In this document: positions 8,589 through 15,603 of the stretch, piece after piece
Layout of the letters: each line of letters begins with the position of its first letter
Numbering within the stretch: position 1 is the first letter of the stretch
NCBI GenBank assembly: GCA_012729755.1
Contig: JAAYCN010000112.1
Span: 1 to 37,460 of the forward strand
From: Chloroflexota bacterium
GTDB lineage: Bacteria; Chloroflexota; Anaerolineae; Anaerolineales; Anaerolineaceae
Length of the DNA: 37,460 nucleotides
Direction: 5' to 3'
Program-made: the position numbers and the translations under genes
Notes under the pieces: generated by a model
What the model was told of the DNA's origin: nothing
Databases searched by the model: none
The model's input: only the letters and a program-made list of their open reading frames with translations

Positions 8589-9392
8589 CTATTGCAGTTC
8601 AAGACTTTCCGCGTTGTACCAATGGAAACCGTTTTCCGCGCAATATGCATTGATCTTGCTTGAAAGATACTTATCCGCGCCATATTCGAGCAAATATACG
8701 GGCAAACCGTAATCGTTTACTTTCGAAAGATACTCTTTAAAATAGCCTGTAACTTCTTCACTCTGCGCTTTATAGCTATGATTCTCAAAGTCTATGGCGG
8801 TAAACACCGTTTCCTGATTTATCCCGTCGAATAGTGACAGGGCTATATCCTTTTCTATGCACTTTGAAACAAAGGTATCGCCACCGTTGATAACTTGTTT
8901 CAGATTGTATTTTTTCAATCCACCCAAAATCTTGCAAAGTCCCCGGAAAATATCTTCTGTCGGATAATTGTAATAGACATCGGCATTGTCCAGAAAGAAT
9001 CCATCGAACCCCATATCCGCGTACTGTTTGCCTAATTCATCGATGATAAAGCTTTGCCACTCAGGAGAAGCCACATCGATCCACCCCTCATCCGGCCAAT
9101 CCTCGTAAACACTAAGGACAAGTCCTTGAAATCGATTGTAATAGGGGCGGTACTTTTCAATAGAACCTATATTCAGATAGCCATACACCGTTTTCCCGGC
9201 AGAATGTAATGCTTTGATCTGCTCTGTAGAAAATTCCGACGGCTCGATTACAACGAGCCTGTATTGGCTCAGCTTGTCGATTTCATTTCCATTAATACCG
9301 AGAAAAACGCCATACTCCTGTGGCTGTCGTGTTGTACATCCGATTAGGAACGGCAAAATGCAAAAACTGATAAAGAATAGTAGCTTTTTCAT
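8589..9392 (-). CDS. GH114-like (endo-alpha-1,4-polygalactosaminidase family) lipoprotein
   Basis: A predicted lipoprotein of 267 residues from MKKLLFF. A hydrophobic signal ends in lipobox LIGC at about residue 19, so the mature protein should be membrane-anchored outside the cytoplasm. The TIM-barrel body shows the family pattern: VYGYLNIGSIEKYRPYY, GWIDVASPEWQSFI and MGFDGFFLDNADVY, with an acidic catalytic site. Relatives cleave galactosaminogalactan-type or related amino-sugar polymers; the true substrate is unknown. The longer reading frame starts at 9440, but the signal peptide favours 9392. No clear ribosome site is seen for either start. The gene is visibly more A+T-rich than its neighbours and lies next to a tRNA, which hints at acquisition. 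Confidence 0.85.
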   Translation of the reverse strand: MKKLLFFISFCILPFLIGCTTRQPQEYGVFLGINGNEIDKLSQYRLVVIEPSEFSTEQIKALHSAGKTVYGYLNIGSIEKYRPYYNRFQGLVLSVYEDWPDEGWIDVASPEWQSFIIDELGKQYADMGFDGFFLDNADVYYNYPTEDIFRGLCKILGGLKKYNLKQVINGGDTFVSKCIEKDIALSLFDGINQETVFTAIDFENHSYKAQSEEVTGYFKEYLSKVNDYGLPVYLLEYGADKYLSSKINAYCAENGFHWYNAESLELQ

Positions 9393-9485
9393 ATTGGTGT
9401 TTAAGCAAGGATTTACCTGTTTTGACTGCCTGCTGATCATTGATTAATTGAAAATCTTAAAAGTGCGTATCACTACTTATGCCAG

Positions 9486-9526
9486 AAAAAGGTCAGTTTC
9501 CGCCTGTCTTTTTTGTCTTAACTGAC
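9486..9526 (-). terminator. Possible terminator after the methyltransferase gene
   Basis: On the minus strand GTCAGTT (9526-9520) can pair with AACTGAC (9498-9492), followed by CTTTTTCT. The stem begins inside the final codons and the loop is long, so confidence is low. Confidence 0.35.
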
Positions 9527-10261
9527 AATTCCATAGGCGTAAAAAGTCGGGATGAAGACGGTCGCTTCACCGGAAAGCCAGGATTCTTTTGCTTTTTCTC
9601 TGAGCGATAAAATCTCGTCCACCGGGACGAAACCGCCCAAATCCCAGGCGATCACGTCCCATTCCGCGTCAAACTCCGCTTCCTCCGGGTTACGCCATTC
9701 GCCTCCCAAGAGGCCTAATTTCACATCTTCCAGCCCGCTTTGGCGGAAGAGAAGACCTAATTTGCGGCCCATCATGATGTCGACACCCTGAAACTCTAAA
9801 GACCTGTTTTGATAGTTGCCGATGTAGCTGAAAATATGTGGGTAATCGACACGTGAAGCATAATCGGGCTCGGCAAACGCGATCACCGCCCCGCCGCGAT
9901 GGGTGACCCTCACCATTTCTTTGAGAATCGATAATGGATCATCCAACCAGAGCAAAAGGTAATGACAAACCACGAAATCGAACACACCACCGCATACTGG
10001 CAGGTGGCGGCCATCCGCACAGATACTTGAAAGATCCGGCAGGTTTTTTTTAGCAAACAGCGAGCGGCTCAATTCAATATCTACTGCGCATGGCCACGCG
10101 TGAAGCGCCTGAAAATCGGACATGAGCGCCCCAGTACCACTGCCGACCTCGAGAATGCGGTTGCCGGGCTGAACACCGAGCTTATTGAGCAGGAAGCTGC
10201 GGAGGTTGCGCGTCCATCCCGCTTGAAACTGATAACGCCGGTGCCAATCAGTCAGCTTCAT
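9518..10261 (-). CDS. Class I SAM-dependent methyltransferase
   Basis: A 247-residue soluble methyltransferase. The SAM-binding glycine motif ILEVGSGTGAL is at about residues 38-48. An acidic VDIEL and DFVVCHYLLLWLDDP (Methyltransf_11-like motif II region) follow. The middle segment MVRVTHRGGAVIAFAEPDY is typical of small-molecule or peptide methyltransferases of this fold. The start codon overlaps the stop of the preceding radical-SAM-like gene (ATGA at 10258-10261), so the two are translationally coupled. It is the last gene of the five-gene run. The substrate is unknown; context suggests the product or co-substrate of the radical SAM pair. Confidence 0.9.
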   Translation of the reverse strand: MKLTDWHRRYQFQAGWTRNLRSFLLNKLGVQPGNRILEVGSGTGALMSDFQALHAWPCAVDIELSRSLFAKKNLPDLSSICADGRHLPVCGGVFDFVVCHYLLLWLDDPLSILKEMVRVTHRGGAVIAFAEPDYASRVDYPHIFSYIGNYQNRSLEFQGVDIMMGRKLGLLFRQSGLEDVKLGLLGGEWRNPEEAEFDAEWDVIAWDLGGFVPVDEILSLREKAKESWLSGEATVFIPTFYAYGIVS

Positions 10262-11367
10262 TCATCCATCTTTCTTTTTGACCAGATATCCTCAAAACTA
10301 TCCGATAGCCAGTTGCCCATCTTTTCCTGCCAGGTGTTGTCCGCATACACCTCACCTTTTGGTGAGACGCTCAATTCGGTGTAGCTTTCTTTTCCAGTTA
10401 TTGCCATATCAACCATTGTCGGGTGATGGTATTCCACAGGTATGGGAAGATCATTGATGAGGCGCAGCTCATAAGAGGAGATATCTTCGGTCAGTTGCAG
10501 AGCGAATTTATCCGCGATTGTCGCTGGGGAGATGACTGAAAACGCGTTAGCGCCAAGCTTGGACAGGGAATCGAGAATTGGTCCATAATCTACGCCCTCA
10601 CGAACAACCAGCCCCACACAGGTAAACAAGTCAAGAGGTAAGATTTGCTGAAGAGCGGTTTGGATAAGCGGATCGGAGGGTTCATAGATCGCGTAGAGAT
10701 GATCCAAGCCGGACTCGATCATGCGAGCTACATATGCAGAATCGGATAATTTTTGACCACGGCTTACCAAACCGCTAACCAATCCGAATTCTTCTGTATA
10801 AGCTAATAAATCGGTCAGATATTCAACCTCGGTTGGTTCACTGCCACAGAAAAGAATGTGTGGTATCCCCGCTTCGTAAGCTTTTTTGATGATGTTTTTC
10901 CAGTCGTCCAATTTGAGGTTTACCTTTAATCCAAGCGATCCGCCGTTAAGGTAGCAATCAAGACGATAGGGCGCGGAGAGGTTGTCGACATCGTTATGTG
11001 CTTCAAATATGCCCTGGTGTTCTGGGTCGAGATCGATTGTGGTAACCAGTTCTTCCAATTGATGATGGAGCAGTGTAACGTCAGTTAAGCAAGTTTGGGG
11101 ATCAACCTTAAAATGTGAAGCGACAAGCCTGGCGTTCTCCTGATCAGACTTTCCGTTGATCAGGTTATAGACCATTTCAGTGGCTGTCTGGTTGAGATGC
11201 AGGATAGTTGATGCGTTCACGATCAACACGCCTTCTCCATCGGGTTCAACCCGAAGATGCAGGCGATATTGAGGTGTTTTGTTTTCAGGCGTGTGATAAG
11301 TGTAAAATCCTTGGGGAATAGGCTTTGGATTTTCAAATATTGCGCGTAGCTTCTCGATTATATTCAT
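10258..11367 (-). CDS. PqqD-like/radical SAM-like pseudoenzyme (lacks cluster cysteines)
   Basis: A 369-residue paralogue of the radical SAM protein encoded immediately upstream. The two align over their length. N-terminal PqqD-like blocks correspond (HLRVEPDGEGVLIVNASTI here, HLRVDQDQSGVMILDASQV there), as do LSAPYRLD/LSAPYRMD, GIPHILFCGSEPT/RIPHVVFTGGEPT, ESGLDHLYAIYEPSDP and the C-terminal LSDSFEDIW. The CxxxCxxC segment is absent: the aligned region reads YLNGGSLGLKVNL. All SPASM cysteines are also missing. It should therefore not bind Fe-S clusters or cleave SAM. The ATG at 11367 has a GGGAG ribosome site; an earlier ATG at 11379 overlaps the previous stop (TAATG). Role inferred: a partner or peptide-binding scaffold for the active enzyme. 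Confidence 0.88.
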   Translation of the reverse strand: MNIIEKLRAIFENPKPIPQGFYTYHTPENKTPQYRLHLRVEPDGEGVLIVNASTILHLNQTATEMVYNLINGKSDQENARLVASHFKVDPQTCLTDVTLLHHQLEELVTTIDLDPEHQGIFEAHNDVDNLSAPYRLDCYLNGGSLGLKVNLKLDDWKNIIKKAYEAGIPHILFCGSEPTEVEYLTDLLAYTEEFGLVSGLVSRGQKLSDSAYVARMIESGLDHLYAIYEPSDPLIQTALQQILPLDLFTCVGLVVREGVDYGPILDSLSKLGANAFSVISPATIADKFALQLTEDISSYELRLINDLPIPVEYHHPTMVDMAITGKESYTELSVSPKGEVYADNTWQEKMGNWLSDSFEDIWSKRKMDE

Positions 11368-11378
11368 AATTGCTCCCA

Positions 11379-12731
11379 TTAGCTAAATACTTCAATGATC
11401 GGTTCAACTGTCTGATGCTCTCTGGCAAGTGGACAACCACCGCCGCATTCCAACAGAAAATCGCAACGTCTGCATCCGTCTGGAATATTCTGTCGATGCC
11501 TCAGGGATTCAGCCAGAGGATGCTGCCAGATGCTTTCCCACGAGTTCGAGAGAATGTTGCCGAGGCTCTCATAATAAGATTGGCAGGGCAGCACGTCGCC
11601 ATTTGGCTCGAGGCACATGTTGTAATATGCCGCGGTGCAGCCTTTGACGCCAAGCGACAAAAGCAGGGGGTTAAAGTGGCAATACTGGGTTGGGGTGTAC
11701 CAGATCAGCTGCTGGCCACTGTTTTGGGTAAACTTAGTCGCTTTTTCCAGAAGCGGGGGCAAATCGTTTTCTTTCAAGCCGGTCTGGACTGTTGCCCCGT
11801 GTCCTGAATAAATTAGAGCGTTGATGCCGATGGTGGGGACGTGCTCGTCTGCCAGGAAGGTAAGAATTTCATCCAACCTGCCTGCATTACTGCTCAGTAA
11901 AGTCGTGTTAGTCATCAAATAAAGTCTGGAATTGACAGCATTTCTCAAGCCCTCACGGGTTTCTTCCCATGCGCCTCGCGCCAGCACCATCTGATCATGC
12001 ACATCCGGGTCATTGGACTCAACAGTGATCTGCACATGATCAAGACCCGCTTCGACCAAACGGTCGACAAACAATTTATCAGCCAACCGCCTGCCATTGG
12101 TGTTCAAGCCGGTCACCATGCCTTTTGTTTGCGCGTAGCTGACGAGGTCAATCAGGTCATCTCTCAACGTTGGTTCTCCGCCAGTGAAAACAACGTGTGG
12201 AATGCGTAATTCCCAGAGGTGGTCGATAATCTCAAACCATTTTTGAGCAGGCAGTTCCGGAAAATGGCGCTCTCTGGCATTGTAGCAATGGGCGCAATTG
12301 TTATTGCAGCGGTATGTGATTGCCAGATCCATCCGGTACGGAGCACTGAGAGTTGAAGAGAAGGGCATCGCAGACACCAAATCAAGGTCACATACCGGAC
12401 AAAGCGCCTGTTCTTTGTCAATTAATGCGCTGGTTTGAGCTGAAATTCGCTCAAAGTCCATTTCTGCCTGTTGTCTGTCGATGCGATAATGTTTCAGAAT
12501 GGCTTTAACCGCTTGCGTGCGTTCGATCTTATTCAAGACCAGCCAGGCAATGAAGGTCGCGGTGGGGTTTAGATGAACTACCTGTGAGGCATCTAAAATC
12601 ATCACACCGCTCTGATCCTGGTCAACTCGCAGGTGCACCCTTGATTTTGAATGCTCGGATTCTTGATCAAAGGTATATAAGCCTGTCTCAGGCAAATCTG
12701 GCAATGCTCGTTGAAAAAGCTTGAGTCGCAT
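11379..12731 (-). CDS. Radical SAM/SPASM peptide-maturase-like enzyme with PqqD-like N-terminus
   Basis: A 450-residue enzyme with three parts. Residues about 15-105 resemble a PqqD-like RiPP-recognition domain. A CPVC pair lies at 111-114. The radical SAM core begins near 130, with C142, C146 and C149 (CNNNCAHC) for the SAM-binding [4Fe-4S] cluster and TGGEP at 183-187. A SPASM domain has C365, C373, C383, C420, C423, C429 and C433 for auxiliary clusters. This layout resembles PqqE-like enzymes that modify ribosomally made peptides. Its ATG lies only 12 bp after the stop of the gene encoding the Cys-Ala-tailed protein, and its stop overlaps the next gene. I infer that it modifies that tail; sequence alone cannot prove this. 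Confidence 0.92.
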   Translation of the reverse strand: MRLKLFQRALPDLPETGLYTFDQESEHSKSRVHLRVDQDQSGVMILDASQVVHLNPTATFIAWLVLNKIERTQAVKAILKHYRIDRQQAEMDFERISAQTSALIDKEQALCPVCDLDLVSAMPFSSTLSAPYRMDLAITYRCNNNCAHCYNARERHFPELPAQKWFEIIDHLWELRIPHVVFTGGEPTLRDDLIDLVSYAQTKGMVTGLNTNGRRLADKLFVDRLVEAGLDHVQITVESNDPDVHDQMVLARGAWEETREGLRNAVNSRLYLMTNTTLLSSNAGRLDEILTFLADEHVPTIGINALIYSGHGATVQTGLKENDLPPLLEKATKFTQNSGQQLIWYTPTQYCHFNPLLLSLGVKGCTAAYYNMCLEPNGDVLPCQSYYESLGNILSNSWESIWQHPLAESLRHRQNIPDGCRRCDFLLECGGGCPLAREHQTVEPIIEVFS

Positions 12732-12743
12732 GCGTAAATAAAG

Positions 12744-14471
12744 CTAACGGCCACCGCCGGCACAGGCACAGGCACAGCCCGCGCATGCACAGGCACATGC
12801 GCAAGAAGAGCCTCCTCCGCCTCCTCCCCTGAAACCACCACCTGAACGAGGTTGAGCCGGGATTGGGTTGGTACGGGAAGTAACAGAGCCAGTGAAGACG
12901 CCCACATTCCCAATCAGGCTGGCGGTCATGGCTGAAGCGTTATTGACCATTGAGGCAGCAAAATCAGCACCTGGGATACTCAACGGGCGTGAGGTAGTCG
13001 TTGAAGGACTGCTGGAGGGCTTTGGTGAGCTCAGGACTCCGCCACCACTGCGATATACCGGATCGTAACGCCCCCACCATCTCGGCAAGATCACAGGACC
13101 GCCACTGAAGGTACGCTCGGTGCGGGGGCCGTATTCTTTGTCGAGCATTGTCCATTCGAGCGCTTTCTCATATGTTGCCATCTTGACCTCGGGCGTTGCC
13201 GAACCCTCGACAGATGACCACGCTCGAGCGACGATATCCTTGTAATAGGCGACCGTCTCAGGAACTGAAAAACCTTTCATTTTATCTGTGACAACCTTAA
13301 CCAGGTCAATAATGGTTGATCGAAGAGCGCGTCGACGGGCTTCTTTGTCTTTGGATTTGAAGGCTAAAATAAAGCTTTTCTCATATTCATGGAGGTCTGC
13401 CGGCATTGGATCCTTCACCAGGATTTCAAGCGGCTCTTTTTGAGCAACCATAACGGCATCTTTCTTGATTACACCAAACAGAATCATGGTCAAGATGCGG
13501 TCAATAGGTTGTTCCATCAGAATGCCGGCTTCAACAGCTGTGAGACCGCGTTTGATGCCGTGCCCTTCGATTGAAATCTTTGGGGGAAGATATTCCATTT
13601 TACGCTTCTCATGATCTTTAGCGTTTTTAGCGTTTTTGATGACGGCAGCAATGAATATTGCCAGCGGAATCAGTCCAAAAAGGCAGGGTGTGCAGCTTAA
13701 TATTTCGGACCAGAAACTCGAACTCGAGCCTTGATTGTTGCCGCTGTTAAATGTCACTCCGATCGCGTTGCTCGGTACAGTGCTGGCTGGAAAGGCAGCC
13801 CCAAACAGGTAAGATGTGTGAGTGTCGGCTTCATCGCTGTACCATGAGTAGTAAACCCGCCCATCGGTTGTTGTGGAAGCCTCTACCTCCTGGGTCTGGG
13901 GAAATTTTCCAGGTTTGTAGTAAACACCCTGATCTGTTCCCACACCAGGTGGGAGAATGATGGTCATCCGATATTGCGTGTTATTGGATCGATCGAAGGA
14001 CGAGTCGAAATAGGAGGGAGTGAACTGGAAATTAGCGAAATTCTCTTTATCTTCGCCATCGTAAGGGGTGAGAAATTTCGTGATGCCGTAGACGTTGGCT
14101 GTCACGACTCCTGTTGCGCCAGAAGGAATAGCGTTGTTTTTTAAACCGAGTTCAACGCCATGGACGTATTCTGAGTTTTGAATATGTGTGATCGGAATTT
14201 CGTTTATCTGAGCGGAAATATTCTTGACCTGATATTCCGCGTAAGGCAAACCCAGGTCCACGAAATCAATCGGTTTCCCACTCGGCGAGTTTTTAAAATC
14301 CATGAGGTACTTGAGAGTTAGCGTTCCGTCTGACTCGATGTAAGCCTCAACCTCATAGCGAGTAACTTTGAATTCGTAGTTCTGGGCTGAAACGTTTGTG
14401 ATCGGCAGAATAAAAATCAGAAGACAAATCAAAAACGTTGTTATTATGAGGAAACGAGATTTTTTTACCAT
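12744..14471 (-). CDS. DUF2207-type membrane protein with glycine-rich Cys-Ala tail
   Basis: A 575-residue protein starting MVKKSRFLI. A signal peptide (about 1-29, ending NVSAQ) precedes an extracytoplasmic DUF2207-like domain of about 225 residues. One transmembrane helix lies at about 256-278 (CLFGLIPLAIFIAAVI), then a cytoplasmic region of about 270 residues, and a Ser/Pro/Gly-rich stretch. The end is extraordinary: GGGFRGGGGGGSS followed by alternating Cys-Ala (seven Cys) and GGGR. Many DUF2207 proteins end in glycine runs; the regular Cys-Ala pattern and the adjacent radical SAM gene are what stand out. The ATG at 14471 overlaps the upstream stop, favouring it over a frame extending to 14585. 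Function unknown. Confidence 0.88.
   Translation of the reverse strand: MVKKSRFLIITTFLICLLIFILPITNVSAQNYEFKVTRYEVEAYIESDGTLTLKYLMDFKNSPSGKPIDFVDLGLPYAEYQVKNISAQINEIPITHIQNSEYVHGVELGLKNNAIPSGATGVVTANVYGITKFLTPYDGEDKENFANFQFTPSYFDSSFDRSNNTQYRMTIILPPGVGTDQGVYYKPGKFPQTQEVEASTTTDGRVYYSWYSDEADTHTSYLFGAAFPASTVPSNAIGVTFNSGNNQGSSSSFWSEILSCTPCLFGLIPLAIFIAAVIKNAKNAKDHEKRKMEYLPPKISIEGHGIKRGLTAVEAGILMEQPIDRILTMILFGVIKKDAVMVAQKEPLEILVKDPMPADLHEYEKSFILAFKSKDKEARRRALRSTIIDLVKVVTDKMKGFSVPETVAYYKDIVARAWSSVEGSATPEVKMATYEKALEWTMLDKEYGPRTERTFSGGPVILPRWWGRYDPVYRSGGGVLSSPKPSSSPSTTTSRPLSIPGADFAASMVNNASAMTASLIGNVGVFTGSVTSRTNPIPAQPRSGGGFRGGGGGGSSCACACACAGCACACAGGGR
12747..12809 (-). repeat. Short repeat encoding the Cys-Ala tail
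   Basis: The last 63 coding bases of the DUF2207-type gene. On the plus strand they show reiterated GGCACA/GCACAG hexamers (clearest at 12759-12777). They encode CACACACAG then CACACAG and GGGR. Perfect and near-perfect hexamers mean slippage could change the number of Cys-Ala units between strains. Confidence 0.8.
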
Positions 14472-14833
14472 TTTGGCTCTTCGGTGATTTCGTAAGTTGT
14501 GCCGCAGCTGTGGCATTTGACCATAGCTGCGCCATTGGCGAGTGTGATATCGCTGGCGTCCAGCGGGGCTCCGCAGGAAGCACATTTCATTGAGTCTAAT
14601 TTGATATTTCCGGGCAGGTCGAGTTTGACAGTGACATTTTGAGCTGTCTTTGTGGCAGATGTCGTAAGACGTGCGCCGGCATAAATCAATACCAACCCTG
14701 CTCCGAGCCCAATCAACCCGGCTATTCGCCAGGCTGAGTCGCCGGTCGCGCCAAAGCTTCCTAAAATCAAAAGCAAAGAGAACATAAGCAGAATTCCTGC
14801 TAAAACATAAGCAATAATTCCGGCTGTTTTCAT
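14465..14833 (-). CDS. Small two-helix membrane protein with C-terminal zinc ribbon
   Basis: A 122-residue protein, first gene of the cluster. Two hydrophobic helices (about residues 6-28 and 36-54) are followed by a short linker and a zinc ribbon with CASC (about 84-87) and CHSC (about 106-109). AGGAGG (14840-14845) lies six bases upstream of the ATG, and a TATAAT-like element is at 14868-14873. The TAA stop overlaps the start of the DUF2207-type gene, so the two are coupled. Function is not known. With a membrane anchor and a zinc site it could be an accessory of the DUF2207 protein. Confidence 0.85.
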   Translation of the reverse strand: MKTAGIIAYVLAGILLMFSLLLILGSFGATGDSAWRIAGLIGLGAGLVLIYAGARLTTSATKTAQNVTVKLDLPGNIKLDSMKCASCGAPLDASDITLANGAAMVKCHSCGTTYEITEEPKW

Positions 14834-14979: not shown

Positions 14980-15603
14980 ATGATGGAAAATTCACAAATC
15001 CCTGACATTGCTGTCTCAAGACTGCCGGTTTATCTGCAAACACTAAATCTGTTGCTTAGGGAAGGGACAGAGGTGGTCTCTTCACAGAAACTGGCTGACC
15101 TGTTGGGAACAACGGCGACACAAATCCGCAAAGATTTATCATTCTTTGGCGGTTTTGGAAAGCAGGGCTCTGGGTACAACGTGATTCGATTACACGAAGC
15201 GCTTAAAGACATTTTGCACTTGAACAAAATCTGGAAAGTTGCCTTATTTGGCATGGGTCATTTGGGCCAGGCTTTGTTGCGATATCAGGGTTTAGCGAGG
15301 AGAGGGTTCGAAATCGTATTGGCTTTTGATGTGAATGAAGCGGTCATCGGCAAGAAAATCAACGGCATGACGGTTCTTAATGAGGCTCACCTTGAACAGG
15401 AATTAAAGAAGCAAAATGTTCAGATTGCCATCCTGACCGTTCCGGCGAAGGATGCCCAAAGGTTGGCTGACCGGCTGGTTTTGTCGGGCATCAAAGCTAT
15501 TTTGAGCTATGCGCCGATCACCATCAAAGCGCCTGATAATGTTCAGATTTCATATGTTGAACCCGTTCTGCAGCTGCAGAAGATGACTTTTTATTTGGAA
15601 TAA
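14980..15603 (+). CDS. rex: Redox-sensing transcriptional repressor Rex
   Basis: A 207-residue Rex. The N-terminal winged helix (about residues 1-80) has the signature LADLLGTTATQIRKDLSFFGGFGKQGSGYNV. A Rossmann domain beginning VALFGMGHLGQAL binds NADH/NAD+, and a short C-terminal swap helix (LQLQKMTFYL) completes the dimer. Rex represses fermentation and respiration genes until the NADH/NAD+ ratio rises. The start is ATG 14980 or the adjacent ATG 14983; AAGG at 14970-14973 fits both. It diverges from the radical SAM run and converges with the MreB-like gene with only 9 bp between stops. Confidence 0.96.
   Translation: MMENSQIPDIAVSRLPVYLQTLNLLLREGTEVVSSQKLADLLGTTATQIRKDLSFFGGFGKQGSGYNVIRLHEALKDILHLNKIWKVALFGMGHLGQALLRYQGLARRGFEIVLAFDVNEAVIGKKINGMTVLNEAHLEQELKKQNVQIAILTVPAKDAQRLADRLVLSGIKAILSYAPITIKAPDNVQISYVEPVLQLQKMTFYLE

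Follow-up and report, generated by a model that had tools for sequence, protein, structure and literature searches.

In a 37,460-nucleotide stretch of Chloroflexota DNA (contig JAAYCN010000112.1, hereafter the window), from a member of the family Anaerolineaceae, we describe a five-gene cassette, Z-A-B-C-D, that is probably a protein-maturation system in which a radical S-adenosylmethionine (SAM) enzyme, B, modifies the cysteine-rich tail of a membrane protein, A. Modification of the tail is the best explanation for the cassette because a radical SAM enzyme that bears a recognition element (RRE) for ribosomally synthesized and post-translationally modified peptides (RiPPs) is tightly paired with a gene whose Cys-Ala tail is near-invariant. 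An earlier reading made from the letters alone (the sequence-only reading) had picked out five same-strand genes that overlap or lie no more than 12 bp apart, and the open reading frame (ORF) coordinates at 9518–14833 agree: Z and A overlap by 7 bp, a gap of 12 bp separates A from B, B and C overlap by 1 bp, and C and D overlap by 4 bp. The genome that carries the window contig is 2.2 Mb, and it was compared with 61 relatives, which are Anaerolineaceae/Anaerolineales metagenome-assembled genomes (Chloroflexota), with 251 genomes of the order Anaerolineales, and with 400 Chloroflexota genomes. The features that carry the argument are as follows.

9518–14833, minus strand: cassette Z-A-B-C-D, five co-oriented genes
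12744–14471, minus strand: A, a 575-residue membrane protein and remote DUF2207 relative (ORF, structure model, profile-profile comparison)
13617–13685, minus strand: transmembrane (TM) segment of A, about residues 263–285 (hydropathy; model helix 267–288)
12852–12986, minus strand: conserved two-helix block of A, residues 496–540 (PGADFAAS...FT..VT..TNP), between two variable linkers (conservation)
12747–12806, minus strand: Cys-Ala tail of A, SCACACACAGCACACAGGGR, the proposed core substrate (pairwise identity 0.94)
11379–12731, minus strand: B, a radical SAM/SPASM enzyme with an N-terminal PqqD-like RRE (Pfam, conserved Cys, solved structures)
12285–12308, minus strand: CX3CX2C motif of B, CNNNCAHC, residues 142–149 (sequence motif)
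10258–11379, minus strand: C, a paralogue of B that keeps the RRE and radical SAM-type barrel and has lost the CX3CX2C and SPASM cysteines (Pfam, model)

Protein A ends in a near-invariant Cys-Ala tail

The seven-cysteine Cys-Ala tail that the sequence-only reading had seen on the membrane protein is indeed the end of A. It is preceded by a Gly-rich linker and has the form (Cys-Ala)n-Gly-(Cys-Ala)n-Gly-Gly-Gly-Arg, with exactly CACACACAGCACACAGGGR present in 64 of 85 distinct C-terminal ends and the remainder differing mainly in repeat number (3+3, 5+3, 3+4). Across these 85 ends, synonymous codons for Cys, Ala, Gly and Arg interchange freely at every tail position; the tail is near-invariant though its codons vary, and therefore selection acts on the protein and not on the DNA. 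The tail has a mean pairwise identity of 0.94, compared with 0.62 for the cytoplasmic domain, 0.46 for the ectodomain and, for the two linkers, 0.28 and 0.39. Cys and Ala are equal in number in the core of every variant except one (CACD in G564), which would fit Cys-to-Ala thioethers, with other SPASM chemistries also possible.

Starting from an ATG at 14471, which we prefer (575 residues) over a 613-residue ORF from 14585, A is laid out as a signal peptide, an extracytoplasmic beta-sandwich, one TM segment, a cytoplasmic domain, the Gly-rich linker, and the tail. The structure model contains the signal helix, the beta-sandwich, a TM helix (267–288), the cytoplasmic domain, helices spanning 501–534, and a disordered end. 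The C-terminal half of A and its tail are predicted to be cytoplasmic because a Lys/Arg-rich stretch directly follows the TM segment. The block at residues 496–540 has a mean pairwise identity of 0.58, against 0.28 and 0.39 in the linkers that flank it, and the model places helices at 501–520 and 523–534, with low confidence. Because this block is conserved in isolation between variable linkers, we propose it as the natural candidate for a leader-like segment recognised by the RRE.

No family in Pfam or NCBIfam reaches its cutoff on A. The DUF2207 label given in the sequence-only reading accordingly fails by Pfam, where A scores 14.3 bits against a cutoff of 24.4 and none of 23 alignment members matches at E 0.01 (PF09972/PF20990); we rejected the assignment at that level and retain the label solely as remote homology. 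As such it holds on profile-profile comparison, in which two genuine DUF2207 proteins align with A at a probability of 99.2% (hhalign, E 1.9e-19) over 473 columns covering both domains. Membership of TIGR04222 was rejected as well: the inspected member scores 16 bits, below the cutoff of 43, and 2 of 23 members match at E 0.01. Matches of A in the PDB, to ribophorin I and the N-terminal domain of M1 aminopeptidase, are driven by the beta-sandwich and are uninformative on the tail.

B is a radical SAM/SPASM enzyme and C its degenerate paralogue

Pfam finds Radical_SAM (92.8 bits), SPASM (39.7 bits) and PqqD (26.2 bits, cutoff 23.4) in B, all above threshold, and together with the CX3CX2C motif these scores substantiate the initial identification of a radical SAM/SPASM enzyme with a PqqD-like domain. 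The SPASM cysteines lie in the C-terminal third, and the cluster cysteines are kept in all aligned B homologues. CX3CX2C, SPASM cysteines and a PqqD-like RRE are thus found in one protein, the architecture of RRE-containing radical SAM/SPASM maturases. The best NCBIfam matches of B, namely PqqE, NirJ2 and the mycofactocin maturase, all fall far under their cutoffs, and its nearest solved structures are PqqE (6c8v, the closest), SkfB, BlsE, SuiB and CteB. B is therefore like PqqE in its best NCBIfam E-value and its closest solved structure; unlike PqqE/PqqD, it lies far below the equivalog cutoff (TIGR02109, 120 bits against 381), has no PqqA-like peptide, and carries its RRE fused to the enzyme.

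C matches the earlier description of a paralogue without cluster cysteines. CX3CX2C is absent from window C and from every C homologue displayed, and window C has no SPASM cysteines and only four scattered Cys. Its PqqD score of 22.8 is just below the cutoff of 23.4. The model of C (mean predicted local distance difference test score of 80) aligns with SuiB and SkfB from inside the RRE winged helix to its end and with PqqE over the barrel, and its structural neighbours include the sactisynthase SkfB and CteB. All C proteins form one clade (support 100/100). On a deep branch, the gene order is B2 (a B-related enzyme described below), a dead paralogue, and A, plus D in one locus, and this paralogue retains the SPASM cysteines with CX3CX2C absent. 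Two separate origins for C and the deep-branch form were considered and set aside, as a single origin was not rejected (approximately unbiased test, p 0.41). By analogy with known systems, we take C to be most likely a non-catalytic partner that joins B in a complex and assists in holding the substrate, a view we hold with moderate confidence.

A and B occur together across the order

A was found in 47 of the 61 relatives; every homologue with an intact C-terminus was tailed, and B or C was adjacent wherever the contig continued. Among the 251 genomes of the order, 199 have A and 202 have B, with both in 196, A only in 3, B only in 6 and neither in 46 (Fisher p 6e-40, shared descent not corrected for). 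The radical SAM clade is present in 30 of the 400 Chloroflexota genomes, and a Cys-tailed partner accompanies it in 30 of 30 (p 3e-43, again with shared descent not corrected for). In one locus (L041), A and C occur without B nearby, and that genome carries a B2-type radical SAM gene on a different contig; linkage alone therefore cannot explain the pairing of A with a radical SAM enzyme. The single-contig genome G233 has neither A nor B, and six congeners have both. On these gene contents, the obligate partner of A is B and not the whole gene set, with B2 substituting in some families.

The sequence-only reading had proposed the tail as the substrate and had suggested searching for tails without the radical SAM pair, for the pair without tails, and for DUF2207 homologues without maturases. 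Only 3 of the 199 A-positive genomes are without B, and each is accounted for: a contig end truncates A (G517), the match is a partial domain inside a 1001-residue frame (G574), or the protein is a true DUF2207 member with a Cys-free tail (G439). In the converse search, all 30 radical SAM genomes of the phylum have a tailed partner; in the order sample, G592 and G154, which are weighed below, do not. The other B-only genomes comprise three whose loci are cut by contig ends (G002, G012, G460) and one with a weak, unrelated radical SAM protein (G038). Two genuine DUF2207 proteins come from genomes without the radical SAM clade, and both have Cys-free Gly/Ser/Phe ends of the GGGGGFSGG type. The proposal has thus survived comparative tests on co-occurrence and on Cys-free relatives, and we consider it likely, with good confidence, that the Cys-Ala tail is the substrate of B.

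A distant sister pair, which also speaks for the maturation reading, is found in three genomes (G434, G193, G070), where the gene of a related membrane protein with terminal (CHSA/CVHDA)n repeats lies directly 5' of a PqqD-radical SAM-SPASM gene. An Ala precedes almost every Cys in either type of tail.

L121:4792–8114, L149:77–3255 and L120:2649–5824: sister system loci, from two genomes of another family in the class and one of another class

Natural variation is also seen in one genus-level lineage (g31, L128–L134) that has no C and in which the tail drifts (GGGSGR, CACAGGGGGR, CACDSC), a point in favour of the maturation reading; this is one lineage and counts as one event. C is accordingly an aid and not a requirement, because the g31 lineage manages without it. 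The earlier suggestion that C and D act as accessory factors is adjusted in that neither is obligate, since this lineage has no C and several loci have no D. One g31 genome (G564) carries its B gene on a separate contig, with altered SPASM cysteines in B and an Asp in place of Ala in the tail.

B2, the B-related radical SAM protein that replaces B in some families, has a Cys-rich C-terminal end of its own, for example GGGGCSGCSGSC. B2-type loci are L039:12458–15057, L077:1063–4192, L138 and L147, and a tail-less A-like protein adjoins in L039 and L077. The B2-type enzyme may modify itself or another target.

A proposed mechanism and its alternatives

We hypothesize that A is synthesized with a signal peptide and a single TM segment, its tail lying in a C-terminal half that stays in the cytoplasm, that the RRE of B would bind the conserved helical block ahead of the linker, and that B would then modify the tail in the cytoplasm. 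C would form a complex with B and help hold the substrate, as TrnD does for TrnC in thuricin CD, and D would methylate the tail or an intermediate. If the tail is the substrate, a Cys-derived thioether, for example to the Ala alpha-carbon, is about an even call. The addition of a methyl group to the tail or an intermediate by D is possible, and we hold it with some doubt. With low confidence, we suggest that A is a redox or metal-responsive membrane protein.

A different chemistry would leave the tail as substrate but dispense with thioethers, with B catalysing, for example, Ala epimerisation, Cys oxidation or a C-terminal modification, and D doing the main chemistry. The SPASM family does include epimerases, C-C cyclases and oxidases (PMC8326336), and among the top NCBIfam hits of B, neither PqqE nor NirJ2 is a thioether enzyme. 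However, the equal Cys and Ala numbers in all core variants but CACD (G564) favour Cys-directed chemistry, and SkfB and CteB are among the structural neighbours of C, so that we regard this alternative as unlikely but of real weight. It is also conceivable that A is an oversized RiPP precursor whose modified tail is released as a free peptide, leaving the rest of A as leader and membrane anchor. A recognition-like block followed by a Gly-rich linker and a core does resemble a leader-core layout, yet the cassette has no gene for a peptidase or exporter (ORFs, Pfam and NCBIfam scans), a tail predicted to be cytoplasmic would require export, and the ectodomain (0.46) and cytoplasmic domain (0.62) of A are conserved themselves. 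This makes release of the tail improbable.

A further possibility is that the tail is an unmodified metal-thiolate module for Cu, Zn or Fe, in which case B and C would act elsewhere and the operon would be joined only by shared physiology. We judge this quite improbable, as B and C bear peptide-binding domains of the PqqD type and no other short substrate is encoded in the operon: its gaps of at most 12 bp leave no room for a separate precursor peptide, and there is no candidate in the flanks. Moreover, the pairing persists when the genes are unlinked, and relatives lacking the radical SAM enzyme have Cys-free tails. In its favour, CxC repeats suit metal binding, Z is zinc-ribbon-like, and bufferins, which are Cys-rich modified peptides, chelate copper (PMC12452194).

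Several observations weigh against maturation of the tail by B as we have drawn it. An alternating Cys-Ala sequence would suit a plain metal-thiolate tail as well, and the recognition block is inferred solely from conservation and a low-confidence helix prediction. C and D are non-obligate, so the full scheme is not universal. The tail, B and C are inherited vertically, mostly in one order, and genome counts therefore overstate the number of independent events. Finally, G592 has a B and C locus without A, in which the start of B is disrupted, and G154 has a lone C; both are draft assemblies, and these cases are either real exceptions or assembly faults.

Other genes of the cassette and its surroundings

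The two outermost genes of the cassette are the following.

14465–14833, minus strand: Z, the first cassette gene, a small membrane protein with a C-terminal zinc-ribbon-like CxxC...CxxC (ORF/translation)
9518–10261, minus strand: D, a class I SAM-dependent methyltransferase (Pfam Methyltransf_11, 53.1 bits)

The zinc-ribbon matches of Z are weak and below the cutoffs of Pfam and NCBIfam. In almost every locus whose sequence extends far enough, a Z homologue lies immediately 5' of A. The Pfam match of D upholds the methyltransferase call of the sequence-only reading. D is common across loci and absent from several, making it a frequent but not obligate member.

A gene for a Rex-type redox-sensing repressor (window 14980–15603; Pfam domains and our own recognition) lies upstream of the cassette in divergent orientation, an arrangement seen within the genus and in some relatives. 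Regulation of the cassette by Rex was considered and rejected, as Rex-box-like sites in the window are not clearly above the chance count. On the same strand as the cassette and 77 bp downstream of D is a gene for a GH114-type glycoside hydrolase (window 8589–9440), and no homologue of this protein was found in the related loci searched. In some families, a conserved protein of about 340 residues is encoded between B and C (L046:11042–12079, L137:7978–9003); it has no Pfam or NCBIfam match. Two loci of one family also carry, near C or D, what we take to be a dual-specificity-phosphatase-like gene (L136:1319–1867, L046:14550–15167).

Relation to known systems and significance

What is known of radical SAM chemistry on peptides comes mainly from short secreted peptides and cofactors. 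Like the sactipeptide and ranthipeptide maturases (SkfB, CteB, TrnC/TrnD), B combines an RRE with radical SAM and SPASM domains beside a Cys-rich ribosomal sequence; unlike in those systems, what B is proposed to modify is the C-terminus of a 575-residue membrane protein, and a short dedicated precursor gene was looked for in the operon and not found. In thuricin CD, TrnC and TrnD form a complex in which TrnD has been modelled mainly on the leader, and activity is largely kept when the radical SAM cluster of TrnD is destroyed, so that only one of the two radical SAM proteins needs its cluster (PMC12093266). The cassette differs from thuricin CD and the sactipeptide maturases in that its second protein, C, lost its clusters by evolution and in having no exporter or peptidase. 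It also differs from sporadic bacteriocin clusters, as A and B are present in most of the order.

The closest concept is that of the TIGR04222 membrane proteins, whose Cys-rich low-complexity tails near MNIO enzymes make them proposed, unproven substrates (PMC12452194). There too, an integral membrane protein with such a C-terminal tail stands beside a RiPP-type enzyme; here, however, the enzyme is a radical SAM/SPASM protein, the tail is predicted to be cytoplasmic and not periplasmic, and the pairing is far tighter than the loose TIGR04222-MNIO link. A also resembles DUF2207 proteins such as SMU.243 in having an ectodomain, a TM segment, a cytoplasmic domain and a Gly-rich C-terminus (PMC10457818), whereas the two ordinary DUF2207 members compared have Cys-free tails and no radical SAM partner. 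The one experimental lead found for this family comes from a streptococcal DUF2207 protein, whose loss reduces tolerance of acid and oxidative stress and also biofilm formation (PMC10457818). In the literature searched, we found no description of a radical SAM enzyme paired with a DUF2207-type protein, and nothing relevant on SPASM proteins with Chloroflexi, Cys-rich tails or membrane-protein tails. As read from these genes, B very probably acts on the tail, and such radical SAM finishing of a large membrane protein would be previously undescribed.

The cassette offers a concrete handle on the function of DUF2207 proteins, and a naturally dead radical SAM paralogue maintained across most of an order is a clean system in which to study the function of a non-catalytic partner. 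The membrane protein that carries the proposed substrate is vertically inherited and occurs in some four fifths of the genomes sampled from the order, which argues for a housekeeping role. Tentatively, and at somewhat less than an even chance, we suggest an order-wide protein modification in which a radical SAM enzyme, together with a twin that evolution has left non-catalytic, would make a chain of Cys-Ala cross-links, leaving a DUF2207-type protein with a permanent redox or metal site. If this is true, related pairs with other Cys/Ala-rich tails would represent a wider class of radical-SAM-finished membrane proteins.

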